From the NCBI RefSeq assembly GCF_035083965.1, contig NC_089724.1, positions 15,804,410 to 15,868,409 of the forward strand: a DNA stretch of 64,000 nucleotides. Reading direction: 5' to 3'. The DNA is from Branchiostoma lanceolatum. Lineage: Eukaryota > Chordata > Leptocardii > Amphioxiformes > Branchiostomatidae. Both the position numbers and the translations under genes were made by a program. Below the pieces are notes generated by a model that made no database searches, was not told the DNA's origin, and saw only the letters and a program-made list of their open reading frames with translations. Positions 11,908 to 63,117 of the stretch are shown piece by piece; positions within the stretch are counted from its first letter, which is position 1, and the number at the start of each line of letters is the position of its first letter.

Positions 11908-13956
11908 TCAGTATCTCGCACTGTTGAGAACCCTGTCGATCTCCCCGTCCTCCGCAGGCTTCAACCTCACGTCGATGTACGCATAATCCTTCTCGCTCGC
12001 CGGCGTCTCGTACTCCTCCCTGTACTGTCGCTGCATCTCCGCGAGGAACTTGACCGTGTCCTCGTCAACGAACTCCACCTCCAGCTTGAATCTCTTGATC
12101 TCCGACTCTCGGAGTCCAAGTCGGATCAGCACCGCGGATAGATAAGTCCACCATTTTGTAAACACAGGTCCGCGCACGTCGCCCCGCGGGAGATGCGCGT
12201 GCAGGACGTTACGGAACTGCTTCAGCCGGATGACGTCGAACTCACGGGATTTCTCTGTGATGAGGGGAGCGCGGTCCCAGCCGGGCCACCCGCCGGGCCG
12301 CAGGCCGCAGATGTGGCGGATGAGGTTGAAGAGCAGGTTGAAGCTGAAGAGGTGGGGGTTACAGGGGATACCTGACAGCGGGTACAGCTGTTCATACTCC
12401 TGCTGCCCCAGGACTTTCTGGTAACCACCTGTGTGAAACAAGATATGTTCCAGAAGTCTCATACAAACAAGCAGCCGCAGTTCCAATAGCCTGTATTTAT
12501 ACAAGCTCTTGGCCGTTACAGGACCGGCTGGCCACTAGTCAGTTCTACAGTTCCAATGGCAATGAAAGATTAAAAAGGCCTCAATGTTACAATATCAAAG
12601 CAAGCCTTTTTCAGTTTGTTTCAAATGGAACAATTTCAACGTCAACATAAAACAAAGGAAAACACTTTTTTTGCAGCCAAGATGATTGAAAAGAATAGTT
12701 ATACAATAGGAATTATGACAATTGCATTTTTAACAAAGATAACTTCTTGACTACCACAAAGCTAAATGTTCTGACAGTTATTGTAGTAACCATAAACTGC
12801 AAATACCACTCTTTAAATCACTACTGACCTCATTTGAGGTGCCTTAAATCAGCAGTTACGTGTTTTCACCATTAATTAATATAAAATAAGCAGTTTTTTT
12901 TTCAATTCAGCAACGCCATTTGAGGTGTCATGTAAGTGTAAGTGTGCTACTAGTACTGACCTGTACCGAAGCGCAGGTGCTTGAGTAGCGGGCTGTACAG
13001 CTGCAGCACGTGTCTCAGGTGGTGTGTTCTGAACTCGTGGGTGCAGGGTAGGCACGGATTGTCGTAATCATCGCATCTGGGTGGAAGAGGGATTTGGAAA
13101 GAATCTTATTTCACTTTGTTTTTTTGTTTAACAATTTCAACCCTCAGATGGCACGCGCCCTCTGGCATAACAAGCAGAAGCTGCAATTTAGAAACATAGA
13201 CGCATAGACACACACAGACAGGCAAGCCAAAAACAATACTCCCTCGGGGCAAAGTAAAAAGGTTGAACTAGTCTTCAAGAAGATGTAAGGCTTCAGCGGT
13301 CTCACTACATTTTTTATTGTCGCCTTTGTTCAAGTGCGAAAGCACTAGATCTAATAGACGTGCAAACGGAGAGACCAGACTAGAGGAACAAACCCGAAGC
13401 TACACATCTGCTATGATTTTTTCAAAGATATAGCAGGTAACCGGTACGTATTAGTTTTAGATTGAGTGAGAGGGTGAGGAGCGTTACGTGGGAGGAAATC
13501 TAGGTGAGCGGGCTGGAGAACGGTGTCCCTTTACCAGATGTGTAGGCGGTAAAATGCGTTGGCGGTTGTGGGATGGCGAGTGAACTGTAGCACGTTCACA
13601 TTTAAAAGTTAACAACACAGAGGACGATTGCATCGACTTTATCTCCAACTTGACAGATGTAGGGTTTGCTTGTTTAACACGTTGTTTTGGTGGCAATTTG
13701 TACGTCAGTTTATTGGCCATTCCCACGCAAAGAAAAAGAAACATGCAAAGACAAACAAGATGCGTCTCTCCCATATAGATATTTGTCAGATCTCAAGACT
13801 TTGCCTCAAGACGTACCTTGGTAAATTGTCCAGCAAGTAGGACAGCAGTGTTGGCGTTCCTTTCTTGATCAGCAGCGCCGCCAGGCGGACGGAGTTGGCA
13901 TAGTGCTCACTGTAGCGACCGCACGCCATGTGGACAACGAGGGTCAAGTTGCTTTC
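11908..13956 (-). CDS. HEPN_DZIP3-type domain protein
   Basis: Exons 13817-13956, 12961-13076 and 11908-12428 join in phase. The earliest in-frame ATG is at 13929 (MACGRYSEHY), giving about 249 aa. The sequence follows the DZIP3-type HEPN pattern: YANSVRLAALLIKKGTPTLL, then LRHVLQLYSPLLKHLRF, LYPL, FSFNLLFNLIRHICGL, GWDRAPL and FDVIRLKQFRNVLHAHLP. The RNVLHAH stretch is an R-x5-H motif of the HEPN kind. Such domains occur in DZIP3 ligases and in many invertebrate immune-type proteins; whether this one is a nuclease is unknown. The tail is acidic and charged (VEFVDEDTVKFLAEMQRQYR). No RING, NACHT or repeat domain is visible. Reading frame is open upstream of the ATG, and a possible extra exon lies at 15090-15128 (TYRHFLWTFVHNK), so the true start is uncertain. 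Confidence 0.75.
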
Positions 13957-17423: not shown

Positions 17424-20400
17424 ATGCAGCAAACCCAAGAAGAACAGCTTCAGCAGACCTTAAGGGACCTGAAGGTGAAAACGACTGTTTTGGAGGTTCC
17501 ACAGGTTGAGAGGGATAAGATGACCAATAGGACCATGGAGATGATCAGCGCGTATGAAGACAACATAAGCAAACTGACTTGGGGCCCGGTCAAGACGTTG
17601 GACCAGGGATGTCCTGAAGTTATCGGCGAAATCATGGAAAGCCCAACTAAACTTGGTATTGCGAATTGATTTTGATACTTGATTTAAGTACATGTAACTT
17701 TACAGTATGCTAGCAGACAAAATATCGACATTGCAGAGAGATTACTTTTCATCCGCTAGTGAAAGATACTGACTGCAATGACCAACTATTGCTAATCCTT
17801 AGTCAATTTACAGATCTACTTAACGATTAAGATAGTATTCTCAAAGTATCATATACATATGACTGCAGGCTGGAGAAGCTCTGCAACAGTCAACGCTGCG
17901 ATCGCAAGGCTGCGCCATTGATTTGATTGTCTCTACACAGACTTGGTAATGCAGAACTTCAACGCCTACCTGGTAAATGCCGGAACCAACACGGGCCATC
18001 CGACATTCTTTGGGTTCATTCCCGCTGGCGGTGGAACGTTTCCCGCATCCCTGGGCAGCTTCATTCCAGCGACCTTTGCTACATACTCAGGTGTGTATCC
18101 TACTTTACACCCTTGTCGCACATAGCCGACAGTTAAGAATGAAAAAAAAGAATATACAGTACATAATGTATGGTAAGGAGTAATTTTTTTACGTTTTATG
18201 TGCTTTGTTGCATTCTATATCGTATTTTCCGTTCCCACAAGCTGCACTGTCGGGCCCCGCTATGGAAATGTGACCCTAGCATAAGTGGTGTGGCAATATC
18301 ATTTCTGGGTGGGAGTTGGTTGGCAAGGTTGCCCACTAGTCTCTTGTCTGCGCCAGCCAACTATGAATATAAAAAAAAATGAAAGTCGGGAAGGTCAAAT
18401 TCACTTCCGTTTTTCAGAGCTAGAGAGATGTTCAGAAAAAAGACGGGCGACGAAGATCTTATCTGTCCTTTGAACCGTGTCAGACAAAGAGTTTATAACA
18501 AAAGACTTGCTTTCAAAACATGAGGTGTCCGCTCAACTGAATCGTTTCACTGGGGGCGTAAGGTGTACAAAGATTAGGTCCATTGTTGGAATGGCCCATG
18601 GAACGAAAAGACTTGATGCCCTAGCCTTCTGCGCAGACCTTCTTGGCGCGACCGGTGCAGTCGGTTGGAGTTGGAGGAGCTCTAATTTGTGCGATGTACA
18701 ACATGAGCCAGGTCGTGCGGCACGGAGAACATAGAAAAATCAAATTCGGGAAAGTCAGATTCTGCTGAAATGCGATTAGCGTGGTGAACTGGGATGGGGC
18801 TAGAATACAATGGAATACAATTTCAAGTTATTCCAAACCCATTGGTTGGAGAGTGGTTGGGATCAAAGTCGTCAGTGCTACGGTCCTGGGCGTGACAGAG
18901 ACGCTATACATGCCACATAAATATTCATTGCAACAGGCCTTTGGTTAGGAAATATGCACGTGCTAATTTGAAAACATGGTGTTGCTCTCAACAATGTTCT
19001 TACATTTCAATATCAGAAAGGAAACGAAAAAAGAAGAAGAAATAAGTGTACGTTTGTAAACAGGGGTCAGTTGGAAAAGCACTGCAGTTGTTGCGATGGA
19101 GAACAAGCTCATCACATGGGTGGCGGACCTGTTCGGCTACCCCGCAGGGCACGCTGGGAACATCTCATCTGGAGGTTCTCTCGCCACTCTCACCGCCTTA
19201 GCCGTCGCACGGGACAGCAAGGAGCTGAAAGCCGCAGACTTTCACAGGTAATTATAACGCTTTAACTAGTTAAACAATTCTTCATCCTCCCCTACCAGGC
19301 CCGCTGTAAATGTCAAGCATGTCGATCCTGCCTCGCGACGTTAGAGCTGGCCAGTCGCTGTGTGTGTCAAGTGATTGGCTGGTAACTTTGATCGTGATTG
19401 GTTGACTCCAACATCAAGAGAGGGAGTACCTGATTGCCTGACGGCTGGTCATCGCTAACGAAGCGAGAAAGACGGATTCGCCAGGGCCTTTTGCAAGCGG
19501 CGTGCCTGCCAACAGACAATACTATATTCTTCAGATAACGCCATCTATTGTTCAGGTTTGCCCCGGTAGGTAGTTTTCTGTGACTTCAACGATGAATGTT
19601 AACGGGGAACGACAACAAATGTACAACTTAAATGAATAAGGAAACTTGTAATGTCTTTGATTTCTCTCCACAGATGTGTGGTTTACTGTAGTGAGTTCAC
19701 TCATTATGCTGTGCAGAAAGGACTTCGGGCCGTTGGGATGCGGGAGGCTATTCTGAGAACACCTCCAGTGGACCAGTCGTACAAGATGACAGCAGCGGCT
19801 CTTGAAAGGCAGATCAAGGAAGATCAAGAAGTGAGACAATTCCGTTAACATCATTAATGAAATAGACACACACTTTTTTCTTCTTCAATTAAATCTCATC
19901 CAACAATTGCTGATTTTAGGAAATCTGCCTTCCACATATGCGTGACAAAAGACAGCGGATGTTGCTTGATACTAGTAACTGTATTGAGTGTCTCATTGCT
20001 TGGATATCTACGTTCATCGACGATGTGTTGATTCTTATGTCAATTTCCTACCCAGGCCGGTTTGCTGCCCTTCCTGGTAGTGGCAACTGTGGGCACCACG
20101 CTGACCGGAAGTGTGGATCCTGTGGACGACATCGCTGATGTGTGTGAACGTCACCAACTCTGGCTCCACGTTGATGCCGCCTATGGAGGGTTTTTCGCGC
20201 TCTGTGACGACGTGAAACAGCTGTTTGTTGGTGTAGAGCGCAGTGACTCCATTGTGGTTAATCCACACAAAGGTGCGTGTGTATGAGAGAATTTCACGTC
20301 CAATGTTTTAGAAGTTATTTGTCATGATCTGCCAATGGATTTGTCACTGTTGCATGAACGTGACATGGTGTATGTCATGGTTAAGGCCCTGGTAACATTC

Positions 20401-23400
20401 GTTGTGCGACCGCACGGACGCTTTACGATCGCATACTGATGGTATTCTTGGGAGAGTCGTGCACGATACCGTGCAAATTTAGCTGTCTGGTATATGTTAC
20501 AAAAAAAGGCTGTCTTAGATCCTTGTCGGCGGTAGATTCTGTCACAGCATGCTGGAAATTCTACGAAATCAAAATCGTACGACGGCCTGCGACGAATCAT
20601 TTTAGTTCCATGCTTCGAAATTCCTTTCTATTTGGATACATGTTTGAGAATACTATCATCCTTTTTATATTAGGGTTGTTCGTACCATGTGGTGTTGGTG
20701 TTCTGGTGGTAAAAGATGGAAAAAAGCTCCAACAGTGTTGTTCCATGGAGCAAACACCCGGCCCCTTCAAGGGATGCCAGCTGGTTTCAGCTGAATACCT
20801 GTCTCCATCCGAACTTTCCTTTGAGCTGACCAGGCCTTTCAGGTGAGAATATCGTTTACCCCGTTAAGCCCCTATCTCACTAGACCCGGTGTTCCATATT
20901 TTTTGGGGCCCCATGGTGATTTGCCCCCACCCCCCTCCACATCTGCTTGGAATCTGCGTGACCTCAAAACTGTGAAGACTCACAGAAACATAAACCCAGT
21001 CCTGTGTTGAAAATACAAAGATATATACATTAAGTTTAGCCATTATTAAAGTGTTACGAATATCAGTAAAGAGCCAAAAATGATCCAAAATATCATGGCT
21101 TCTGAAAGAGATTGGGGTAGTCTAGTATTGTTTGTCTAATATTCCAGATTAAAACAATGTTTTAGCAGTGGGGGGGGGGTCAACACTTAACGACAGGCAG
21201 TAGATTTCTAGCGAGGTCAACGCCCACAGAGCCGGTCCTTTCAAATGCAAAGTAGGCAATTAACGCCAATCCACGGGCACGCGAGGGTCAAGAAGGAATA
21301 TTTCACACCCATTGTCCGTCGACTACTGGTTGATTGTTGATAGCGGCAATACATTACAAAGGACCTTTCCACAGGACTTCCTTTTACTTTGCAGCGCGTT
21401 TTGACAAAACGTACAGATTTCGACAACATATGTTTTGGTTGGGCGCTGCTGTGCTGTAGTCTGTAGACAGGTAAGTCGTAGGAATTCAGGCCGAAGGTGG
21501 AGTCTGCTGTCCAGACACTGAAGCGTTCTGCCGTCTGCCGCTGCTATTCTGTCTGGGGAATCGGGACAAATCGTCTCTTATCGCGGTCTTCACTTTCAGG
21601 GTCAGTTTCTTGGAAGAAGATACACACGCCCTGTAATACTTCGTGAGGGTCAGGCCCTAAGGCCCTTTTAATTTCGCGTAATTCGTAGGGAAGCTATTTT
21701 CTTTCACGTAGGGAGGAGGCGAAAATTTCCTGGATGTTGCAGCCAGTGCATTTCACGTAAAGCATAATCGAGCCGAAAAATTTGACTTCCCTCCTTTTTC
21801 GTACGCGACCCGTCTTGGACAGCTTGCTATCGGGTGGGAAATGTTGGGTTGACTCGATCAATTTCATCTTCATTGGAATCTGTTCCCTCCCGTAACGACC
21901 GCTCCATAAGCGCTAGTGCAGCGCCATTGAAGGTGTAAAACAACTTCATCTCTTCAGTCCCTTCGCGTTATCATGAAAGTTAACTTTACAAACTGATAGA
22001 TCTATGTAGATGTACGGAACAAAATGGAATCAACAACTCAAATGCGCTTGGTTTTATTTTATGACATTTACATAAGACCAGGGGTGTTAACAACCCACAA
22101 GTCGGCCGTCATTGGCTAATTGTCGGTGACGTTCGGTGACCTCCTAACAGCCATATGATTGGACCTCGCTAGAAAATTACTGCCCGACGTTTAGTGTAGT
22201 GTTTAGGGGGATGTAAGTTGTTTTGTCTGATATTCGTAACACTTAGCTAAACTTAATGTACGTATCTATGTATTTTCAACACAGGATTGGGCTTATGTTG
22301 CTGTGGGCCTTCACAGTTTTGAGGTCACGCAGATTCCAAGCAGATATGTGGAGGGGAGCCCAAATCATCATGGGGGCCCAAAAATATGGAACACATTTTT
22401 TACAAAGCACTGAACGGATTTCATCGATGAAAATTAATTTTTTTACACTTTGTGTATTTTGCTGTCTTTTAGTCATACATTTTGCATGATATTCCCATTA
22501 GAAAGTTAAGGGTAACACAAATCCAACTTAAGACGCAGCGAGGCCGCCAACGTGCCACGGGTCCAGTGAGATAGGGGCTCGTAAATTGCAATGTATTTTC
22601 TTTACCACACATAATCTGTCAAATATCTGAAGTGGAAAGAAGAAACTTGTTGGCGATCTTTACATGAAATAAACTACAGGTCAAGTAAAAAATGCTTCCC
22701 TCAGTTTTTGGTACGTAGGGATTGGCCATTCCCATCTCTATAGCCATTGGTATGGCCCAGCTCGGGGTACCGGTTGAACCCACGACCTCCCAAAGGAAAA
22801 GTGAGTAGTCTACCCACTAGCTAGTCCATTGCACCGGTTCAATGAGACTGTGCTGATCATCACAAACTTTGACATGGCAAAACACATCTTGTTGACTTGT
22901 TCTTCACAGAGGTGCTCAGATGTGGCTTCCCCTGAAAGTGTTTGGTGTTGGAGTTTTCCGTATCGCCCTGCAAGAGAAACTTCTACTGGCACGTTACTTC
23001 TACGGGAAACTGAAAGGTGACATTGCGTTTTGCGCCAATAATGTTATACAAAGGCTCAATAATCTCCCTATTTGTTCTATTCATATCTCTCTTTCACCTC
23101 CAGACATTAACCTCCAGACATGCATGTTTTTGCGCATAGTGGGATTAGATTGCATAAGACGCACTTTATGTCAGTTGAACGTGAACTGCATTTGATAATG
23201 AGAAACAATGGCGTTTTCTTTTACCAGGAGAACACCTATTAGAAACTTGATCTCATATTTATCTGCACTGAAATACTACTTCGTTCGAAACTTGTATGCG
23301 TTGATAAAATATGCCTTATAACTTAGAATTAGCCATTGAAATGTTACAAACGTCTTCCCCAACAGCGACGGATTTCTATGTAAGCCGTATCCCGGAATCA

Positions 23401-23801
23401 TAGCTATGAGGTCCTTGTTTTGTAATCATCCACTTAGCTTTACCTCTGAAGAAGAAATTCTAGTTATTTTCGTTCGCAAATCAGTATATTGAGGAAAACA
23501 ACGTTCTCTCCACACAGTTTCTGTTGGGTTCGAGCTACCAATGGAACCGGAGCTGTCCGTGGTCCTGTTTCGTGCTACAGCGCCACCTGGCGTCGTCATC
23601 AACGACTTCAACCAACAGCTCTTGGACGCCTTAAATTCGGACGGGAAAATCTTCATGACGCCCGCCGTGCTTTCCGATCAGTTGTACCTGCGTGTCTGTG
23701 TCCTGTGCTTCAGGACCCACATTGAGCATGTTGATCTTTGCTTCTCTGTCATGCAAGAGAAACGTCTGCATCTTTGGGAGTCACTTCGCTCTGAAGCCTA
23801 A
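17424..23801 (+). CDS. Group II PLP-dependent amino-acid decarboxylase, copy 1
   Basis: Cytosolic pyridoxal-phosphate decarboxylase of the aromatic-amino-acid/tyrosine/glutamate decarboxylase superfamily; the substrate cannot be read from sequence. Eight exons in phase: 17424-17655, 17941-18090, 19064-19247, 19674-19830, 20056-20272, 20674-20842, 22910-23016 and 23518-23801, encoding 499 aa. Landmarks in order: GHPTFFGFIPAGGG, LFGYPAGHAGNISSGGSLAT, YCSEFTHYAVQKGLRAVG (cofactor-stacking His), VVATVGTTLTGSVDPVDDIA, WLHVDAAYGG (PLP-binding Asp), and VNPHKG split by an intron just after the Schiff-base lysine codon. The C-terminus has LSVVLFRATAPPG and CVLCFRTHIEHVDLCF. The ATG at 17424 opens the exon's only long frame. 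An inverted copy lies at 58379-62858. Confidence 0.92.
18105..18360. mobile_element. MITE relic in decarboxylase copy 1, intron 2
   Basis: CCCTTGTCGCACATAGCCGA at about 18109 resembles the left end of the 58957-59245 element, and GTTGGTTGGCAAGGTTGCC at about 18316 resembles its interior. The right end is not found, so this is probably an eroded copy. Confidence 0.4.
20866..22578. mobile_element. Fold-back DNA transposon with long inverted termini in intron 6
   Basis: The ends read AGCCCCTATCTCACTAGACC and, on the right, the complement of AGCCCCTATCTCACTGGACC. Inverted similarity continues inward for several hundred bases: blocks around 20940-21070 pair with 22220-22400, and TTTCTAGCGAGGTC near 21210 pairs with GACCTCGCTAGAAA near 22163. 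No transposase ORF was recognised. The matching intron of copy 2 (59633-59757) is only 125 bases, so the element inserted after the duplication or was lost there. Confidence 0.7.
22690..22830 (-). mobile_element. tRNA-derived SINE head
   Basis: On the minus strand TAGCTAGTGGGTAGAC (A-box-like, 22808-22823) is followed by GTGGGTTCAACCG (B-box-like, near 22770-22782) at tRNA spacing. It lies just before the acceptor of decarboxylase exon 7. It does not fold as a convincing complete tRNA. Confidence 0.5.
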
Positions 23802-24309
23802 ACTTTGTAGTAAAATATCATTGCACGATATGGTGTTTTGAAATGATCGCAGATGGCAGAACTTTAATTATTCCAGTGCTGATTGCAATTTCAGCCGTAC
23901 TATACTCTCCAAGCAGAGGTTGGTGGGGAAGATTGTGACCGTTTTATCATATGTCCCGTTTTTCGTCTGCTCTCGGGGGTACTACATTCCTTCGCCCAAT
24001 GACTTCATAAAGGTTTCTCACCAATCATGCAAATTAGGTCACCATTTACATAAATTGTATATCTTGATCGCCCAAATAACTCAAGCTGTTCAACAAATGA
24101 AAGTCCTCTCTTAGGAAAGAAGACTAGGGCTTTTCACATCTATTACGCAAATGAGTATGAAGTTTACCTTTAATCTTCTTTCAAACGGCGCAGGTATGGG
24201 CGTAAAGCCTAAAGTCTCACATTCACGTCAGTTATACATTGTCACAACACGAGACGAAGCAATACTTTAAGAACAATTGAGACGGACTCAAGCCGACGAC
24301 AGTTAACCA

Positions 24310-36310: not shown

Positions 36311-37057
36311 GTTGTGGCAAGGAATGTCTGGTCCATGATAATGTTGTATGTCAACACAGATTAACAGTTATGCTAATTTACAATATTTGATCAGTTCAAA
36401 TTAAAGTGACACCGAAACAGACAATCATACTTTTTCCAATCTGAGATCGTATAGACTGATTTTGTATATCTATATATTCTACCGTAAAACGTAAACAAAA
36501 ACATGAATACATGCATAGTTCGGAAACAATCGCTCATGATGGACTACTATGTCAACGTTAGCTACAGAAATGGTTGGTTATAGATTCCATTCGTTTTTGG
36601 AGTAACTATGCAAAGCGATTATTCCATTAAACGTTATATGCTTGAACATGATATCCCCCAAATTCGTCAAGTATCATTTCCGTCGCACTGTCGTTGGGAG
36701 TACGATGTTGACCACCGCATTTGACCCCGCTTGCACCACGACGTTACCCTGTCCTTGTAACCTGGTCTCACTCACGGTCGCTCGACCATCTATACAGCAA
36801 ACAGAAAAACGTTACGTCATCAAACGTCATAGCTTTACGTGCACCAGTATTATTACTGATGATGCATCGATACAGTCACGTGACTATGACGTAGTATTGT
36901 CCACCATCTTGGATGGTTTAACCTAAACGTTGCCAGGTGGATTTGAATACATACATGTACATATATATGTAATTACAGCCAAGTATAAATACATAATACA
37001 AATCTATAGGACTAGGCATGACCCAGACCTAGTCTGAATTATACGGTTTTACCGACC

Positions 37058-37406: not shown

Positions 37407-38023
37407 CTACAGACCTCTCCAAACTTGTTTCTTGAACAGTTTCGGGCAGTGGACGTTGCTGACGTCCGTTTTGTCCAGTTTGTCCAGCAGCCATGGGTAG
37501 TTCTCCTGTAAGGCGTGTCTGAACGTGCTGTAGGCGTGCGGTCCTCTCAGTACCAACAGGTCCAACATAACCCGCACCTTGTCCTGTCGGGTTGTACCGG
37601 CATACGTTCTGTCCATGTCATCTTCACTGAGAAAAAAAAAACACACACAAGACGGCAAAAACATTTACAAAACACGCCAAATAAAGTACTGACTGGGAAG
37701 GAGGCATTTGTAATCGACTGACTAAAATTAGAATAGCATAATGCAAAAATGTTGTAACATAACGGACATTCGGTGTGCCTGCGAAGCTGGTGTGTTACGC
37801 CGAAGGGTGGTCATACAGGCTATATAGGTACAGATACAGAACATGGTACATTGATGTGAAGACTCGCTTGGTGCATGGCTTTTTCTTCGGTGATGGGGGA
37901 GGGGGGTGTTACTAACCTGAAGATGCCTTCTTGATATAGGTAATGGATGGCGTCATGTACATTAAGGGAGTCCAACAGGTCAATCCGGTTACGAATAAGA
38001 CGTTCTCTATCCGCGCCGTCCAT
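37407..38023 (-). CDS. Small CARD-domain protein (two exons)
   Basis: Death-fold adaptor-like protein, 108 aa, almost all one CARD. Exons 37917-38023 and 37407-37626 join in phase (AG|T). It begins MDGADRERLIRNRIDLLDSL and HDAIHYLYQEGIF, then after the intron EDDMDRTYAGTTRQDKVRVM, LRGPHAYSTFRHALQE and LDKLDKTDVSNV. The pattern of helices (RxRxxLxxxL, LxxxGxxxxxDxxxI, K..LLDLL..RG..AYxxFxxAL) is typical of CARDs. An acceptor-like CCTTCATTCAAG sits directly before the ATG. A possible further donor near the stop (AGAG then gtctgt) leaves a longer isoform open. CARDs recruit caspases or other CARD proteins; the partner is unknown. Confidence 0.8.
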
Positions 38024-40626: not shown

Positions 40627-41886
40627 CTATTTCCTTGTATCTGGTGGTTTCCTGATAGCCCCCCTGCCCGCTGGTTTTGCTGGAGGGACGCCGGTGTATC
40701 TGTTGATGGTGCAGCCTGATCCCGTATTGATGACAATGTTTCCTGACCCATGGACGATGGACGTGTTGGAAACCTGCATGGTGTTTGCCGTCCGACCTGC
40801 ATGTACACGTGTGAAGAAAGGACATTGTATAGGCGCTAAGTCACAGAAATTTTCACGAGGGCTTAACCCTGAGGAATTGCCAAAAACTTGTGATAGTTTG
40901 CAAACACATTATTTCCACCATTCTTGTGAATACTAAGAAACTACCCATTGTCCATGAATGAAGATATGACTAATACTATTATCTTTATGCCCCAAAAAAG
41001 CATGAAAAGTGACCTTACTAGTCTATAAGCTTGTGATTTGGTGAGATTTAATTGGACCTTGTTTAACAATGACTCTGCATCATATGTTTAAATCAGAAAC
41101 ACCAATTAAACATTGCTGGTCAAATTTTGTGATAAAGTAATCTGCAAGTCATATTATATTGCAGGTGAATATTCAATTGTCAATGAAATGAACTGGTTCC
41201 AGACTTTTCTGCCTAGAAGCTGTTACCGAAGTAGATTGGAGCAAGAAGAGGATGGATTCCAAGTTAATGATTGAAGCCCTGCATTAGAGGCTACACCAGG
41301 GTTTTGCACAGACAAAGATTTCTTCCTGTTATCTGTCAACTTCAAGCCAATGCTCGCCTCATGGTATGATTGGAGCTAATTCTAATCACTATTATATCAA
41401 ACCGATCTTGTATATGAAGACGATAGAATGGCTACTTTTGTCTACAATTAGCAACAAGACTTCATCAAATGACAGTACGACAGACGCTGGACAGAACTAT
41501 GGGCTTAATTTACTAACTCACTACTTACTGTAAGTGGTAACTCCTGATGCTCCGCCTCGTGATGATGACGACGACGAAAACTTTTTCGGGTCCACGTCAC
41601 TCACATCTGTCTTTTCCAACAGTTCAACTATCTCGTCATAAACTTTCACTTTCTGATCCTTCAAGGCAGCAACAAAATGTCCGTAAGCACCCTCCCCTCT
41701 CCTTGGCAGCATGGTAAGAAGTTGAAAGTTCTTATCTCTGGTTGTCGTCTTGGCTTCTATTCTTTCCATGTCGTCTATAGAGAGGACTTCTTTTTCGTAG
41801 AGATAGTGGACGAGGTGTGGCGATTCTATATTGTCCAGAAGTTTGGTGTGGTTTTTCCGAAGGCGAGCCTGGTCGTAGGGGTCCAT
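40627..41886 (-). CDS. CARD protein with C-terminal RHIM/amyloid-like motif
   Basis: Exon 41529-41886 encodes a complete CARD (MDPYDQARLRKNHTKLLDNI, HLVHYLYEKEVLSIDDMERI, GEGAYGHFVAALKD, LLEKTDVSDVDPKKF) and a serine-rich linker. Read through, it would stop at 41521, but it ends in a strong donor (TTACA then gtaagtag). The next acceptor, TGTACATGCAG at 40797, opens exon 40627-40796 in the matching phase, giving 175 aa. The added tail holds NTSIVHGSGNIVINTGSGCT; its IVHGSGN core resembles the (I/V)Q(V/I)GxxN core of RHIM-type amyloid motifs. A noncoding first exon is likely: donor at 42339 and acceptor CCAACCCCAG at 41918. The start is in good context (cagtcaccATGG). The CARD has no intron at the site where the neighbouring CARD gene has one. 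Confidence 0.7.
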
Positions 41887-42339
41887 GGTGACTGACAGTA
41901 AGGCACAAATTTATTTCCTGGGGTTGGAGCGAAAGTAAGAAACTTTACTCAGAGCATCTATTGTGTAAGACTAAGAGATATTACAGATCATCATCATCTT
42001 ACATCTGTATTACTCAGGTGAGGTATACTAGATAAAACTTTCCAGTACTTTTTGTCCTTCCTTTACCTTACAGATAAAGTTGTTATATCATTTGTTTATC
42101 ATCTATCGAAGCAAGTCCTTGATCGAAGTTTTGACATCGGACTATGCAGGAGGAATAGCAATTAGATCCCTATGGCGTAAGTACGGTGAAAGAGCTAAAG
42201 CGAAGTTATTTGAAGAAGATAAAACGTCAAAATTGTATAGATAGTTGTTAACGTTAGAACCCGGAAGTAACGTGCCCCCCTCCCCACAGCATGCGAAATT
42301 TGGATACTCGCATGACAGTTTGCATTGTGCCTGACTTAC

Positions 42340-42480
42340 CACATGTAACCCAACTTTAAGAATCAGAAGTAGAACAAAAAATCGGCAAAGCTATCGCACA
42401 AACCTCATTCAGTATCAAAGTGACGATCTTCGGAAACAAACTCAACTCTTGTTCAACATGGCCGCTGAATCACTCCTTCG
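42340..42480 (-). promoter_or_regulatory. Presumed promoter / noncoding exon 1 of the CARD-RHIM-like gene
   Basis: A donor, ACATGTG then gtaagtcag, marks the 3' end of a noncoding exon at 42340. Upstream, AACATGGCCGC (42455-42465) is a one-mismatch YY1-type site. CCCGGAAGTAAC at 42260, inside the presumed first intron, is an ETS-type site. Confidence 0.4.
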
Positions 42481-45234: not shown

Positions 45235-46944
45235 TCAACCCTTCAGTATAGTGACACAACCATGGCCAAACAGACCCTTGGGCATGCTTCCCACCTGCTT
45301 AAGTGACTTGTCTTGCTGATTAAGACACAAGACCTTTGTTGTTCCATTGCCGTTGTTACTGCCTCCATAGATGTAAATCTCCCCACCAAAGACAGTCATA
45401 CCACAGTTGTATCCAGTACCAGTGTTAGCTACAACAGTCCACAAGCCCTCATTAGGCCTGTAACAGAGTACTTTTGAGGGAAGGCCAGCAACATAGATGC
45501 TACCATTGAGAACTGAAGCAGTGATACCACCAGCTCTCTCAGGCATGTCGCTTGGTGCATACCATCGGGAGTCTCCTGGGCTGAAGCGGTACACCGTAGA
45601 TGTTTCGTAGTCCCTAGCATCACGTCCACCTATGACGTATATGCTACCATCTAACACAGCAACTGCATGCAGGTACCTTGGCTGTGGGAGCGGAACACCT
45701 TCAGTCCACTTGTTTAGGCTTCGGTCATAGACTTCTACACCTGCTACTACATGTAGCGGTGAATAGTTGATTCTGCCCCCAATAGCATACGCTTTACCTT
45801 GCACTACTACCAGCTTGTGGTAGTCCCTTCCTGTATTCATAGGAGCAAGTTTAGACCAGGAGTCAAGTCCTGCCTGATACAGCCACACATTCTTGCATGG
45901 AATCCCACCAACCGATAACATGATGTCACTTGTGCCCAAAACAGCCACAGCAAAACCATAGTCATTATTTTTCTTCATTCTTGTCATAGGCACCCAACTT
46001 GCACTTGATGGTGCAGAGGAGTATGTCATTGTGATGGAGCAGCTGAAGACATCAGGGTTTCCTTCGCCAGTCCCTAATGTCTGTGAACCTCCAACAACTA
46101 CTACTGCTTCCCTCAGACCACTGGCACGGCGGGGACGGGTGCGGGGTGACTGGACCTCCCCTGGGAATGCCTGATATTTCCGAGCTTCTGACAGAATATC
46201 TGGGCAGCACTTACGTATGACCTTGTCCGTCTCCACCTTGTCCATGAAGTACATCTTCTCCATGAAGGGGAACCGGATGTGTTGCATCAGCTCTTTCATC
46301 TCCTTCTTCCTCTTCCTGGTGTCATGGTTGATCCATTTCAGCACGGCCGTGTACACGGTTTCTTCAGTAGCATTAAGGTTATCTGAGGAGATGAGTTTCA
46401 GGAGTTGTTCCTTTGTCAGATCGAAGAACTCTAGTGTTTTGCTGACTGCTGCAAACTCTTTCATGGCATATGTCAATGCCTTAGTCTCCAAGTTTGGGTT
46501 TAGCCTGCCGCCAAAGTTCACCATCTTCAGACAGTTTTTGATGCTTAGACTGTCAGATAGAAACTTTGTGCATGCATGGCTGACCGGTGGAACCTGGAAG
46601 AAGTTGGCCCCTTCCATCAGTTCTACAACGTTGTCTTCTGTGATGGTTACCTTTGATGTGTAGGCATAGTCAACTAGAAGCTGCACAATGTCGGTGCTGG
46701 CTTCATGAATCACAACCTTATGCTCCTTGCTTTCAAGATGACCATTACAGAACATTGCACGAAAATATCCACTGCAGGCAGCAAGCACATTCCTATGACC
46801 CGGGATTTCTTTCCCAGAAACACACAGGACTACATCTACCAGCAGGTTTTCTGAACGCAGTTCCTGCAAACCCTGCAAGAGGGCGTTTGAGTGTGTATCA
46901 TGGCAGAAGTCAAGCGGTGACTGTGACTTCTGTGCTGTCGCCAT
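45235..46944 (-). CDS. BTB-BACK-Kelch (KLHL) protein, copy A
   Basis: Likely Cullin-3 ubiquitin-ligase substrate adaptor, 569 aa with an uninterrupted coding exon. BTB at about residues 20-130 (LLQGLQELRSENLLVDVVLC, HRNVLAACSGYFRAMF), BACK at about 135-240 (LSIKNCLKMVNFGGRLN, VYTAVLKWINHD), then six Kelch blades to the C-terminus with double-glycine strands (AYAIGGRINYSPLHV, SIYVIGGRDARDYETSTVYR, EIYIYGGSNNGNGTTKV). KLHL proteins use BTB and BACK to bind CUL3 and the Kelch propeller to bind substrate; the substrate here is unknown. An acceptor (TGTTACAG, ending 46957) lies 12 bases before the ATG, so a noncoding exon is spliced on from 49301. Paralogue B lies at 52323-54053. It is a KLHL, but I cannot assign it to a numbered vertebrate family. 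Confidence 0.93.
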   Translation of the reverse strand: MATAQKSQSPLDFCHDTHSNALLQGLQELRSENLLVDVVLCVSGKEIPGHRNVLAACSGYFRAMFCNGHLESKEHKVVIHEASTDIVQLLVDYAYTSKVTITEDNVVELMEGANFFQVPPVSHACTKFLSDSLSIKNCLKMVNFGGRLNPNLETKALTYAMKEFAAVSKTLEFFDLTKEQLLKLISSDNLNATEETVYTAVLKWINHDTRKRKKEMKELMQHIRFPFMEKMYFMDKVETDKVIRKCCPDILSEARKYQAFPGEVQSPRTRPRRASGLREAVVVVGGSQTLGTGEGNPDVFSCSITMTYSSAPSSASWVPMTRMKKNNDYGFAVAVLGTSDIMLSVGGIPCKNVWLYQAGLDSWSKLAPMNTGRDYHKLVVVQGKAYAIGGRINYSPLHVVAGVEVYDRSLNKWTEGVPLPQPRYLHAVAVLDGSIYVIGGRDARDYETSTVYRFSPGDSRWYAPSDMPERAGGITASVLNGSIYVAGLPSKVLCYRPNEGLWTVVANTGTGYNCGMTVFGGEIYIYGGSNNGNGTTKVLCLNQQDKSLKQVGSMPKGLFGHGCVTILKG

Positions 46945-47370
46945 CGTAGCCTAATTCTGTAACACAACACAAGCTCTTTATTAGTTGTACTTCTTGACAC
47001 AAGGCTTTGACTTGAGTAGATAAATAAATCCAAGTACATGACATGGTAATCAGAGATGGCAGACTTCACCCCCCTCACATAGGCCAGAAACACACTCACA
47101 GGCAGACATGCCCAAAACAATACCTCTCCCTCATGGGAGGAAAATCTATATTTAGATGAGCTGATCTTCCACAAAAGTAGGTTTTATCTGCTCAAAAGGT
47201 ATTCAAATCCTAGTTTTATTTATTTTTGTATCACATGTTTATTGAAGTCAGTGTTAATTTCAATGGCCAATCACCCTTCCTTTCCTTCATATGTCAAATG
47301 ATGCTTAGGCCACACCAATCTTTTTTGGGTGGGGGTGGTGTGTGTTTGATCTCGGATCATTGTAGGAAAT

Positions 47371-52322: not shown

Positions 52323-54053
52323 TCACGACTTCAGTATAGTGACACAACCGTGTCCAAACAGACCCTTGGGCATGGTTCCCACCTGCTTAAGTGACTTGTC
52401 TTCTTGATCAAGCCACAAGACCGTTGTTGTTCCATTGTTGTTGTCACGGCCTCCATAGATGTAAAGCTCCCCACCCAAGACGGCCATACCACATCTGGAT
52501 GCTGTACCTGTGTTGACTACAACAGTCCAAAAGCCCTTATTAGGCATATATAGGCTATAACGGAGCACTTTTTGCCAAAGACCAGTAACATAGATGCTAC
52601 CATTGAGAACAGAAGCTGTGATGTCAGCAGCACTCTCAGGCATGCCGCAGCCGAATTCGTCAGATGTCGAATCCCACTGGGTGTCTCCTGGGCTGAAGCG
52701 GTACACCGTACGTGTTGGATTGTTCTCAGCACTAGAACCGCCCATGACGTATATGCTACCATCTAACACGGCAACTGCGTACAGGTACCTTGGCTCTGGG
52801 AGTGGAACACCTTCAGTCCACTTGTTCAGGCGTCGGTCATAGACTTCCACATCTGCTGTTAGATGTAGAGGCACATCTTTGCTTCTACCACCAATAGCAT
52901 ACGCTTTACCTTGCACCACTGCCAGCTTGTAATAGTCCCTTGCCTTGTTCATTGGAGCCAGTTTAGACCAGGAGTCAAGTCCTGACTGGTACAGCCACAC
53001 ATCCTTGCACTGAGGCCCACCAACGGACACCATGATGTCACTTGTGCCCAAAACAGCCACAGCAAACCCATGGTTATTCTCTACCTTCATTCCCGTCAAA
53101 GAAACCCAACTTGTGTTTGATGGTACTGCGGACTGAGTCGTCATGATGGAGTTGCTGTACACCCAAGTGTTATCTTCACCTTGGTCCTCCATTCCCCCAA
53201 CGATCACCACCGTCTCCATCAGACCACTGGCACGGCGAGGACGGGTGCGGGGTGACTGGACCTCCCCTGGGAATGCCTGATATTTCCGAGCTTCTGACAG
53301 AATATCTGGGCAGCACTTACGTATGACCTTGTCCGCCTCGACCTTGTCCATGAAGAACATCTTCTCCATGAAGGGAAACCGGACCAGTTCCATCAGCTTT
53401 TTCATCCCCTTCTTCCTCATCCTGGTGTCATGGTTGATCCATTTCATCACGGCCATGTACACGGTTTCTTCAGGAGCATTCAGGTCATCTGATGAGATTA
53501 GTGTGATCAGCTGATCCTTTGTCAGATCAAGAAATTCCGGTGTATTGTTGACTGCTGCAAACTCTTTCATGGCATGCGACAATGCCTTGGTCTCCAGGTG
53601 GCGGTTCATCAGCATGATGCCTAAGTTTACCCTCTCCAGACAGTTTTTGACACCTAGAGTGTCTGATAGGAACTTTGTGCATGCATCACTGACCGGTTGA
53701 AACTGGAAGAAGTTGGCCCCTTCCATCAGTTCTACAGCATTGTCTTCTGTGATGGTTACCTTCGATGTGTAGGCGTAGTCAACAAGAAGCTGCACAATGT
53801 AGGCGCTGGCCTCGTGAATGACAACCTTACGTTCCTTGCTCTCACGATGACCATTACAGAACATTGCACGAAAATATCCACTGCAGGCAGCAAGTACATT
53901 TCTGTGGCATGGGATCTCTTTCCCGGAGACACAAAGGATGACATCTATCAGTTGGTTGTCCGATCGCAGTTCCTGCAAACCCTGCAAGAGGGCGGTTGGG
54001 TGTGCATCATGGAAGAAGTCAAGCGACGTTTGTGACTGCTGTTCTGCTGCCAT
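52323..54053 (-). CDS. BTB-BACK-Kelch (KLHL) protein, copy B
   Basis: 576 aa, uninterrupted coding exon, same architecture as copy A: BTB (LLQGLQELRSDNQLIDVILC, HRNVLAACSGYFRAMF), BACK (VYMAVMKWINHDTRMRKKGM) and six Kelch blades (AYAIGGRSKDVPLHL, SIYVMGGSSAENNPTRTVYR, ELYIYGGRDNNNGTTTV). The paralogues differ mostly in the Kelch loops and agree best at the BACK-Kelch junction (IRKCCPDILSEARKYQAFPG). Copy B has small insertions, for instance in the fourth blade (SDEFGCGMPESAADI against SDMPERAGGI). The acceptor at 54066 lies 12 bases before the ATG as in copy A, joining a noncoding exon that ends at 55172. Confidence 0.93.
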   Translation of the reverse strand: MAAEQQSQTSLDFFHDAHPTALLQGLQELRSDNQLIDVILCVSGKEIPCHRNVLAACSGYFRAMFCNGHRESKERKVVIHEASAYIVQLLVDYAYTSKVTITEDNAVELMEGANFFQFQPVSDACTKFLSDTLGVKNCLERVNLGIMLMNRHLETKALSHAMKEFAAVNNTPEFLDLTKDQLITLISSDDLNAPEETVYMAVMKWINHDTRMRKKGMKKLMELVRFPFMEKMFFMDKVEADKVIRKCCPDILSEARKYQAFPGEVQSPRTRPRRASGLMETVVIVGGMEDQGEDNTWVYSNSIMTTQSAVPSNTSWVSLTGMKVENNHGFAVAVLGTSDIMVSVGGPQCKDVWLYQSGLDSWSKLAPMNKARDYYKLAVVQGKAYAIGGRSKDVPLHLTADVEVYDRRLNKWTEGVPLPEPRYLYAVAVLDGSIYVMGGSSAENNPTRTVYRFSPGDTQWDSTSDEFGCGMPESAADITASVLNGSIYVTGLWQKVLRYSLYMPNKGFWTVVVNTGTASRCGMAVLGGELYIYGGRDNNNGTTTVLWLDQEDKSLKQVGTMPKGLFGHGCVTILKS

Positions 54054-54138
54054 TGTAGCCTAATTCTGCGATACAAAATGATGCCTTTATTGATGTTGTA
54101 CGACAAGTGACTTTGTGCCACCATAATACAATGAAACA

Positions 54139-58268: not shown

Positions 58269-58378
58269 AGATTAGTGTAGAAATGAAAGGACTAATTTCC
58301 AAACACGGCACGGATCCAATTGCAATCAGTACAGGAAGTGTAAGGTGAAAGAAAGTAAAAGTGTAATCTCCAAACAAT

Positions 58379-61300
58379 TTAGGCACCAAAACGAATAGAC
58401 TCCCAAAGATGCAGACGTTTCTCTTCAATTAAAGAGAAACAAAGATCAATATGCTCAATGTGGGTCCTGAAGCACAGGACACAGACACGCAGGTACAACT
58501 CATTGGAAAGTAGAGCGGGCGTCATGAAGATTTTCCCGTCAGAGTTCAGGCCGTCAAAGAGCTGTTGGTTGAAGGTGTTAATGTCGACGCCAGGTGGCGC
58601 TGTAGCACGAAACAGGACCACGGACAGCTCCGGTTCCAGTGGTAGCTCGAAGTCACCGGTTCCTGTATGGAGATCAGACGCAGTTCTTTTTCATTAACAT
58701 GTTGTTTTCCTCCACATACTTTTTGTAAAAAAAAAGAGGAGAATTAAAGCTAAGTGGATTACAAAACGATAACCTCATAGCTGTGTTGATGAAGGTTATC
58801 GATGTGCACATAGGAGGGAAAATATACTCATAGCTGTGATTCCAGAAAACAAGGCTAACACAGAAATCTATTCTTACTTCTAAGGCATACTTTATGAACG
58901 CATGCATGTTTCGAACGAAGGCATTTTGCAGTGAAGAAAAATGTGCTTATCTGAAGCCCCTGTCACACATAGCCGACCATGGCCTCCCGACCCTCTCTAG
59001 ACCATGGTTAGGAGTCGGTCGTCAGCAAGGTCATCTACTAGTGTTTGGAGTTGGTCGGCAAGGTTGCCTACAAGTCTTCGGAATGCGTCCAGAAAGTCAT
59101 ATTCTGTTTGATACGATCAGAGGAGCGTTCTGAATATAGAATAGGATGGACACTAGGCTACTCCCGAGTCCCAGCCCACCGGCGACCTTGGTTAGGGAGA
59201 GGTCGAGAGCAAAGTGGTGGGGAGGTCCTGAATGTGTGACAGGGGATTTACCTGGTAGTAAAAAAAGATACGTTGATATCAAGCTGGGCGTTTTCTTACC
59301 TGAGAAACTACAGAAAATGTCATTGTTTGTTAATATCAAATGCAGTTTACGTTCAACTTATTAAAGTGCAGTATCTTATTATATAATCCAATCCCAATTA
59401 GTGCAAGTAGAATTACTAAAGTTGAGAGAGAGAGAAAGAGAGAAAGATGACAAAAAGGGAGATTACTGAGCCTTTGTACAGCATTCTTTACACAAAACGC
59501 ACTAAAAATATTGATAATAATTCACCTTTCAGTTTCCCGTAGAAGTAACGTGCCAGTAGAAGTTTCTCTTGCAGGGCGGTACGGAAAACTCCAACACCAA
59601 ACACTTTCAGTGGAAGCCACATCTGAGCACCTCTGTGAAGAACAAGTCAAGAAGAGTCATGTTCATGTGTTTTCAGTGAAATTTCGAAATGAAAGATTGT
59701 GGGATATTGAGGAAATTGATGACTATGTGCTAGTAACGGATTATACAACATTTTCACCTGAAGGGCCTGCTCAGTTCAAAGGAAAGTTCAGATGGAGACA
59801 AGTTTTCAGGTGAAAACAGCTGACATCTCTTGAAGTAGCTGGGCGTTTGCCCCATGGAGCAACACTGTTGGAGCTTCTGTCCATCTTTTACCACAAGGAC
59901 ACCGACACCAAAGGGTACGAACAACCCTAAAATAAAGTGGATATTACTATTCCCTCATTTTACCAAACACCAAATTTAAAACGGAAAGGCATTTCGCAGG
60001 ATGACACTGCTTATGGTGCAGTGACTGCAGTCACATTCATCATAGGCCACCGTGCAATTTGGATGGTCTTTGATGTCATAGAATTTCAAGCATGCTGTGA
60101 AAGAATAACCACCGACAAATGACAGTCTTCTACATAACAACATACATGTAACGGTATATAAGACAGCTAAATTTCGTCAGTGTTTGTGACCAGGTCCCTA
60201 ACCACGACATATACTAAAGCACGTTTAAGCCAATGGCTGACCACTGACCTCTCAAAGATTGGACGTGAAATTAGAATATTAAATTCTTTTTCCATACATA
60301 TGTCAGAGTAGAGATTTCGATCTGGAAGAATCGCCGATTCTACCGGTAGAGATCCCGATCGGAATTTCTACCGGTATAATAGCAGATTCCACCAGAGTCT
60401 GTACTCTGACACATACATACCTTTGTGTGGATTAACCACAATGGAATCGCTGCGCTCTACACCAACAAACAGCTGTTTCATTTCGTCACAGAGAGCGAAA
60501 AACCCTCCATAGGCGGCATCAACGTGGAGCCAGAGTTGGTGACGTTCACACACATCAGCGATGCCGTCCACAGGATCCACACTTCCGGTCAGCGTGGTGC
60601 CCACAGTTGCCACTACCAGGAAGGGCAACAAACCGGCCTGGGCAAGGAATTGACAATATGTTTATATCTACCTATCTATCTATCTAATACTAATAGTATC
60701 TCTCTCGGTCAAAGTTGGCTGGAAGTAGGTATCGCCCCCCATTCCGTTTCAATGGAGGTTGGTGAAACCTTTTAGCGTCGCAATAAAAGAAGGTTTTGTG
60801 CTGTCAGGAAAAGTCAATTTCAGAAAACAACGCTGTTGGTTTTCTTGTCGCTTTTAACCAGTCACTACTTTATACGAAATGCAAATATAATCATGTATTC
60901 TTTGAATGAGATTTGAATGGAGAAGAAAAGTGAGCGTGTATCTAGAATTGTCTTACTTCCCTATCTTCCTTGATCTGCCTTTCAAGAGCTGCTGCTGTCA
61001 TCTTGAACGATTTGTCCACTGGAGATGTTCTCAGAATAGCCTCCCGCATCCCAACGGCCCGAAGTCCCTTCTCTACAACGTAGTGGGTAAACTCGCTACA
61101 ATAGACCACACATCTATGGAGAAAAGTCATAGATATTACAAGTTTCATTATATTGTTGTCGTTCCTCGTTATCCTTCATCATTGAAGTCACAGAAAGCCA
61201 TGCATAATTTCTACCGGGGCATTCCTCAACCCTTGGTCAGGCAAGCCGTCTGTAAAGGTGCAAAGGCCCTGGCGCACCGGCATGCTATCCGTCCTTCTCG

Positions 61301-62565
61301 CTGCGTTAGCGCTGGTCAGCCATCAGCCAATCAGGTACTCCCCCTCTTATTGTTGGAGGGAAAGTTACCGGTCACTAACTATGTGTGTTGACCGCAAGCT
61401 GATTGGCTGCCGACTGGCCAGCTCTAATGCAGTGAGAAGGACATTTAAAAGCACGGGAGGATGAATAATATAATTCGCATGAATTATGTCAGTTGACCAT
61501 CCTATCTACTCAAATTACACAAGTTGCTAAATATATATAAAAGTCTTATATTAGCAAAGAAGGCCTTCCTTTGCATGATTTATGTCTGATCATGTCCACA
61601 TCTTAACTTCCAAATGCTGCAAGAATGAAATCCCCATCATTTACCACTATGGATTTATAGTATTTTGCCATTAATTTTGCAAATTAGGTTCAGTTCATAA
61701 TTGATATCAGTCAATATTCCTGACTTTCTCAGTTACATATGTGACGTGTTTGAGATTCCTATAATGGAGTGCAGCGGATTTAGAGATTTTTCTCATTAAT
61801 CATTCAAATTAGCTACTGATTTGCATAATCAGTATCTGATCTTGTTAATCACTCAAGCTATCTACATACCAAATATCATGACGATCCGTCAACCCCTTCT
61901 TGAGTTACTAGTATTCCCTTTCAAAGTTTGAAACCAAATCGGCTCCTGCAGTTCCGCTAGGTGGCCCAAACCTACACTACTTACTCTCCCTCCCGAGAGC
62001 TATCTGCCACTCAAAATTGATGACCATAACATGTCAAGAACGCGATATATAGAACCCGAAAGTTCCGCTGCAGTACCATAGCAAGCCGCTAGGAGGCCCA
62101 AAATAATGTCGAGGTATGAAGACAATCCTTCCAGGCATTGTCGAGTTATACTGTTCACAGACGGACGGACACACACACGAACGCTGTGCAAAACATAACC
62201 TTCTCGACGAAGGTAAATAGTAGTTGAACGAAGCGAAGCGTTACCTGTGAAAGTCTGCGGCTTTCAGCTCCCTGCTGTCCCGTGCGACGGCTAACGCGGT
62301 AAGAGTGGCGAGAGAAGCTCCAGATGAGATGTTCCCAGCGTGCCCTGCGGGGTAGCCGAACAGATCCGCCACCCATTTGATGAGCTTGTTCTCCATCTCA
62401 ACAATTGCGGTGCTTTTCCTGTGGAACCCTGTTTCAAAACGTACACTGATTTTCTTTTTTAGATCAATAATGAATGTTGGAACATTGTTAATATATGTTA
62501 CGAGCAAAACTTTAATTTCAAATTACAACGTACGCATTCCCTCACCAAAGGTCTGTCACAATGTA

Positions 62566-62620
<55 letters not shown>

Positions 62621-62858
62621 GTGCATGTGCATGTGCATGTGCATGTGCATGTGCATGTGCATGTGCATGTGCATGTGCATGTGTATGTGTATAAGATAGG
62701 ACGCACACCTGAAAATGAAGCAAGGGCCGCCGGAATGAAGCTGCCCAAGGCTGCGGGAAACGTTCCACCACCAGTGGGAATAAAACCAAAGAATGTCGGA
62801 TGGCCAAAGTTCATTCCGGCATTAATCAGGTGGGCGTTGAAGTCTTGCATTACCAAAT
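58379..62858 (-). CDS. Group II PLP-dependent decarboxylase, copy 2 (5' exon outside)
   Basis: Seven exons, each exactly as long as its counterpart in copy 1: 62709-62858 (150), 62245-62428 (184), 60957-61113 (157), 60421-60637 (217), 59758-59926 (169), 59526-59632 (107) and 58379-58662 (284). All phases match and no stop or frameshift is seen, so 422 residues are readable. Exon 1 (about 77 codons) should lie beyond 62870 and was not found before the window ends. Catalytic features are kept: FTHYVVEKGLRAVG, WLHVDAAYGG, VNPHKG. One substitution falls in the small-residue loop (ISSGASLAT against ISSGGSLAT). A hexanucleotide microsatellite begins 16 bases inside the intron from the exon 2 donor. 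It is convergent with copy 1, about 34.6 kb away. Confidence 0.9.
58957..59245. mobile_element. MITE with CCCCTGTCACACAT ends, in copy 2 intron 7
   Basis: Starts CCCCTGTCACACATAGCCGA and ends with the complement ATGTGTGACAGGGG. Internal inverted similarity (GACCCTCTCTAGACCATGG with CCTTGGTTAGGGAGAGGTC). A relic of the same family is in intron 2 of copy 1. Confidence 0.65.
59423..59450. repeat. GA-rich microsatellite
   Basis: GAGAGAGAGAAAGAGAGAAAG, about 75 bases from the donor of the 59526-59632 exon. Confidence 0.7.
61475..62216 (-). repeat. AT-rich family, antisense copy in copy 2 intron 3
   Basis: The complement of the family's left end, AACCTTCTCGACGAAGGT, sits at about 62198-62216. TTTGCATAATCAG and ATTCAAATTAG units run leftwards from it. 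The family's right end is missing. Confidence 0.65.
62562..62692. repeat. Two-phase hexanucleotide microsatellite
   Basis: About 11 GTGTAT units followed without a break by about 10 GTGCAT units, then two more GTGTAT. It lies inside intron 2 of decarboxylase copy 2, next to the donor at 62708. Confidence 0.9.
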
Positions 62859-63117
62859 CTGTGTAGAAACAATTAGATTAATGGTGCTGTTTACGATAAC
62901 TTTGAAATAAGTAAAATTCCATTATAAAGTTTTTTTTAGCTTTGATCCAACAAAAAGAAGGAATTGACACCATGAATTTTCGGTCGGAACTCCAACCTTC
63001 CTCAAAGGTTTGATTCACTCTACCAACATAAATGAGCTTAATTCGAAGTAAATTCTATTTCTCCTTCCTCCGTTTGGCATTTTCAGAAAACTAAAACGGA
63101 GCTTTTTTACAATCTCA

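Follow-up and report, generated by a model that had tools for sequence, protein, structure and literature searches.

What does a short tail, added by splicing to the CARD of a small amphioxus protein, contribute to that protein? The original prediction described one such gene, here gene A, as a CARD protein with a spliced-on RHIM/amyloid-like tail. The window, the whole stretch of 64,000 nucleotides of Branchiostoma lanceolatum DNA analysed here, holds this gene and a second one, gene B. Sequence analysis establishes the gene anatomy of the two models, the CARD identity and the conservation of the tail as protein between the paralogues. A passage of a 2021 review asks whether the RHIM is the sole animal signalling amyloid (PMC7889193). 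If the reading preferred below is true, these two CARD adaptors, with RHIM/PP-like tails that are conserved and spliced on separately, would provide a testable candidate for another animal signalling amyloid, and an example of a death domain replaced by an amyloid-type motif. Among the literature matches listed, a set with subscription papers and preprints mostly outside it, no title or abstract opening describes a CARD-RHIM adaptor.

Gene A is composed of a CARD exon and a terminal tail exon, separated by a predicted intron:

41529-41886, minus strand: coding exon 1, encoding the CARD and a Ser/Gly linker, with the donor TTACA/GTAAGT at its end
residues 7-86, about 41868-41629, minus strand: CARD (Pfam PF00619, 3.2e-15)
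40797-41528, minus strand: predicted phase-1 intron, 732 bases
40627-40796, minus strand: terminal tail exon, 170 bases, with a protein-level match to the gene B tail
40702-40773, minus strand: tail core VSNTSIVHGSGNIVINTGSGCTIN, placed by its sequence and its alignment to gene B

The minus-strand ATG lies at 41886 (CACCATGG), with an in-frame stop nine codons upstream, and the donor after 41529 reads TTACA/GTAAGTAG. Joined in phase 1, the two exons encode a 175-aa protein containing NTSIVHGSGNIVINTGSGCT and terminated by a TAG codon; unspliced readthrough past the donor yields a protein ending in TTYSK. The CARD scores 56.4 bits against a curated PF00619 cut-off of 23.9, placing it within the family. 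CARD models alone match the joined protein in Pfam (E up to 10), with no domain recognised in the tail. The CARD exon with its donor, the phase, the 170-base exon length and the peptide of the original prediction are all reproduced in this sequence model. The predicted feature had also extended to 42340, but no gene A coding was found across 41887-42340, where the one ORF scanned (42145-42390) has no Pfam match (E up to 1).

Gene B, on the same strand, is detected by tblastn of CARD A (E 2e-9) and tail A (E 0.018) against the window. It is positioned downstream of A, with 2603 bases from the gene A stop to the gene B ATG, and comprises the following features:

37917-38023, minus strand: coding exon 1, first part of the CARD
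37415-37626, minus strand: exon 2, remaining CARD, with the donor GAG/GTCTGT and an unspliced end KKQVWRGL
36674-36789, minus strand: terminal tail exon, 116 bases
36719-36745, minus strand: NVVVQAGSN in the tail, carrying 4/5 fixed positions of the PP core NxGxQxGxN
36707-36775, minus strand: tail stretch aligned to the tail A core (tblastn E 0.018; shuffles)

The model (38023-37917, 37626-37415, 36789-36674; intron phases 2 and 1) encodes 144 aa. The joined protein falls within the CARD family (Pfam 3.2e-16; 59.5 bits against the cut-off of 23.9), with no other domain found in Pfam at E up to 0.01, and its CARD is 43% identical to that of gene A. Both genes share one plan, in which a CARD is followed by a phase-1 intron and a terminal tail exon. 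The CARD of gene B is split by the phase-2 intron and that of gene A (41529-41886) occupies a single exon, which implies that one of the genes gained or lost an intron after the duplication.

The alignment of VSNTSIVHGSGNIVINTGSGCTIN (tail A) with VSETRL-QGQGNVVVQAGSNAVVN (tail B) has 10 identical columns in 24, and its score is reached by 0 of 20000 shuffles of B and 3 of 20000 shuffles of A. Across the 23 aligned codons, identity amounts to 10, 17 and 5 at positions 1, 2 and 3, respectively, and blastn of locus A against locus B (2.1 kb each) returns nothing below E 0.5. Together, the codon-position pattern and the silence of blastn make the tail look like protein under selection. Genes A and B, as modelled, are old tandem duplicates with tails kept as protein, and this retention since an old duplication is the main ground for believing the tail exon. 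Through the shared plan, the shuffles and the codon pattern, gene B lends better support to the reading of a CARD protein whose tail is beta-prone, conserved and spliced from an exon of its own than it had when gene A alone was described.

The CARDs themselves are of RAIDD type when judged among sequences with solved structures. In that set, RAIDD is the nearest sequence to CARD B (1.4e-12; next 5.4e-4) and to CARD A (9.1e-5; next 0.007). RAIDD consists of a CARD and a death domain. Pfam detects the latter in neither A nor B, and no hidden death-domain exon turned up in the 20 neighbouring minus-strand ORFs scanned. An amphioxus CRADD with a death domain, separate from A and B, is reported in a passage of PMC3196919, and many rearranged death-fold proteins are described from amphioxus in parts of PMC3196919 and PMC2575513.

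Searches of the window with both modules returned no third copy of either: the best extra match to the tail has E 1.0 (0.077 in the reversed window) and that to the CARD has E 6.1 (2.8 in the reversed window). Nor was a partner gene bearing an A/B-type tail found in the window. Elsewhere, an ORF at 11911-12534 (minus strand) carries a DZIP3/hRUL138-like HEPN domain (PF18738, 4e-23). Two single-exon BTB-BACK-Kelch genes (45238-46950 and 52326-54059, both minus strand) lie upstream of gene A; their DNA is 82% identical over ~1.8 kb, and we read the pair as a more recent tandem duplication. A broken inverted duplication links 18914-23802 with 58378-62575 through six or more blocks that run in opposite orientation and share 74 to 94% identity, and includes two similar 102-103-aa ORFs with no Pfam match. 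A long dinucleotide-type repeat at 62500-62880 produces low-complexity ORFs on both strands.

The fungal PP motif is a relative of the RHIM, and both were compared with the tails. Published passages give the RHIM core as G-(I,V)-Q-(I,V)-G (PMC7885112), the RHIM tetrad as V/I-Q-V/I-G (PMC12119088) and the PP core as NxGxQxGxN (PMC9815663). The best register in each tail was judged against 20000 shuffles. Tail A fits the RHIM core at 2/5 positions (19995/20000 shuffles as good), the tetrad at 2/4 (19827/20000) and the PP core at 3/5 at best (4381/20000). Tail B reaches 3/5 for the RHIM core (12102/20000), 3/4 for the tetrad (7751/20000) and 4/5 for the PP core at NVVVQAGSN, a fit equalled by 145/20000 shuffles (352/50000 in another run). 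NVVVQAGSN is the sole 4/5 PP match among 1300 six-frame window ORFs (>=30 aa; 66086 aa). With six motif-by-tail comparisons made, the PP match in tail B can be called no more than suggestive.

The original prediction aligned IVHGSGN of tail A with the VQVGxxN-type core of RHIMs. This register fails, as IVHG fits the tetrad at 2/4 positions, a fit that 19827/20000 shuffles reach. In the register of tail B, the core of A falls at NIVINTGSG instead, N taking the position of the Q in B. An internal repeat of ~9 residues in the tails is not significant (reached by 862, 666 and 563 of 5000 shuffles for A, the A core and B, respectively). Beta-aggregation-prone stretches lie at the core of both tails on an aggregation scale. 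The predicted RHIM/amyloid-like character is only suggested: B comes near the PP core, but A fits RHIM and PP no better than shuffles. The tails are suggested to resemble amyloid signalling motifs without a strict match, and are not RHIMs by the published definition.

Profile similarity to an amyloid motif, a check that the original prediction had proposed, is absent from the libraries searched. Pfam, searched at E up to 10 without a positive control for so short a motif, gives no match to the tails or cores of A and B, and neither tail matches NCBIfam (E up to 10). No RHIM chain is among the matches of PDB sequence searches with the tails. The best matches there, 3r5a for tail A (E 1.2), 3m7h (Putidacin L1) for tail B (E 0.092) and 7dg7, an AAA+ ATPase, for the two-row tail profile (E 0.015), were taken as short-beta-strand resemblances. 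A candidate bacterial relative at a single locus (L001), with 48% across query residues 6-38, was attributed to chance because it runs antisense to an 840-aa ORF on the opposite strand. Tail B has no match among plasmids at E up to 10.

Our leading interpretation, held tentatively and at somewhat less than even confidence, is that A and B are RAIDD-type CARD adaptors with tails that self-assemble in an RHIM/PP-like manner. As old tandem paralogues, they would be small adaptors with the tail exon in the place of the death domain. The tail would form short beta strands, NIVIN in A and NVVVQ in B, with turns that contain Gly (GSG, GQG, AGSN) between them, and these strands would stack with like tails into an RHIM/PP-like cross-beta assembly. 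Such an assembly is proposed by analogy with the partial cross-seeding between fungal PP and human RHIM reported in passages of PMC7885112 and PMC7889193. The tail could thereby bring CARDs together, or connect the CARD to a compatible motif on a receptor or kinase, and a CARD clustered or connected in this way would nucleate a CARD caspase. Having different cores, Q in B and N in A, the two proteins may also have different partners or seeding behaviour.

A self-assembling tail is ranked above a tail that simply docks, although the latter is a serious contender to which we assign roughly one chance in three. Here the tail would be a conserved short peptide that contributes a beta strand to the sheet of a partner, or a linear motif of another kind, with the CARD polymerising and no amyloid formed. 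Partner binding is all that the A/B conservation demands; the ordinary RHIM and PP fits of tail A and the lack of a matching amyloid motif in Pfam and NCBIfam point the same way. The Gly-rich turns and the PP fit of tail B nevertheless exceed the needs of a single docking strand, and such a peptide has no known partner. Descent from a true RHIM, common to lancelet RIPK1-like proteins and diverged in A and B, is far less probable. Passages of PMC12119088 report RIPK1 homologues with an RHIM tetrad from Branchiostoma and natural RIPK3 tetrads that include VQSG, with which ZBP1-dependent cell death is kept and NF-kB activation is not; gene B carries VQAG. Set against this, neither tail contains the full G-(I,V)-Q-(I,V)-G core, shuffles commonly fit as well as the best registers do, and both tails lack a Pfam match at E up to 10.

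A different challenge comes from splice-site choice, scored with a splice-site matrix. The gene A acceptor at 40796, which the original prediction took as the next in-phase acceptor, is in phase and opens the 170-base exon, but it is neither the first nor the strongest in phase. Its score of 4.22 is only fair, reached by 9.8% of the AGs on the strand, and five AGs within 41528-40627 outscore it. Among the eight top-scoring AGs checked, 40868 (5.99), an in-phase site, retains all of tail A with a longer start, and 40742 (4.45), likewise in phase, retains part of it. The top-scoring site, 40679 at 9.37, is also in phase and skips the motif. Gene A has four in-phase acceptors for its last exon on the minus strand (40868, 40796, 40742 and 40679), and isoforms could result in which the motif is long, full, partial or missing. 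It is conceivable, if improbable, that the gene A motif exon is unused or used only sometimes, the protein ending either at the stop in the retained intron (TTYSK) or, through 40679, as a CARD with a Pro/Lys-rich tail only. The score of 40679 relative to that of 40796 favours this, as do the weak second donor of gene B (5.14 with the same matrix) and the stop codon that both genes reach soon past the donor if unspliced. Against it, the skipped stretch is the very part conserved with gene B, and the alternative acceptor 40868 retains the motif too.

Returning to adaptors with a self-assembling tail, a bolder extension is unlikely but can be stated: the A and B tails would found a non-RHIM animal signalling-amyloid family, either akin to fungal PP or convergent on it, and RAIDD-type CARD adaptors would carry a member of this family in place of the death domain. 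The diverged cores of the paralogues would then give two parallel, poorly cross-seeding assemblies feeding CARD caspases.

Among known systems, RAIDD/CRADD is similar in being a small two-module adaptor with the CARD first, and differs in having a death domain where A and B have a short tail. RHIMs are carried by RIPK1, RIPK3, ZBP1 and TRIF, with RHIM-like motifs in the fly Imd pathway. The tails share with them a short beta-prone stretch and a Gly turn, together with V-Q-A-G in gene B. They differ in matching G-(I,V)-Q-(I,V)-G incompletely in both genes, in lacking a Pfam match, and in forming a terminal exon after a CARD rather than adjoining a kinase, Z-alpha or TIR domain. Compared with fungal PP and bacterial BASS3, one G of the core is V in B, gene A reaches 3/5 at best, and no NLR domain was detected in gene B or in 29 window ORFs, a scan that covered part of the exons. 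In gene B a suggestive 4/5 of the fixed positions of NxGxQxGxN agree, and the tail is C-terminal, as in fungal effectors.
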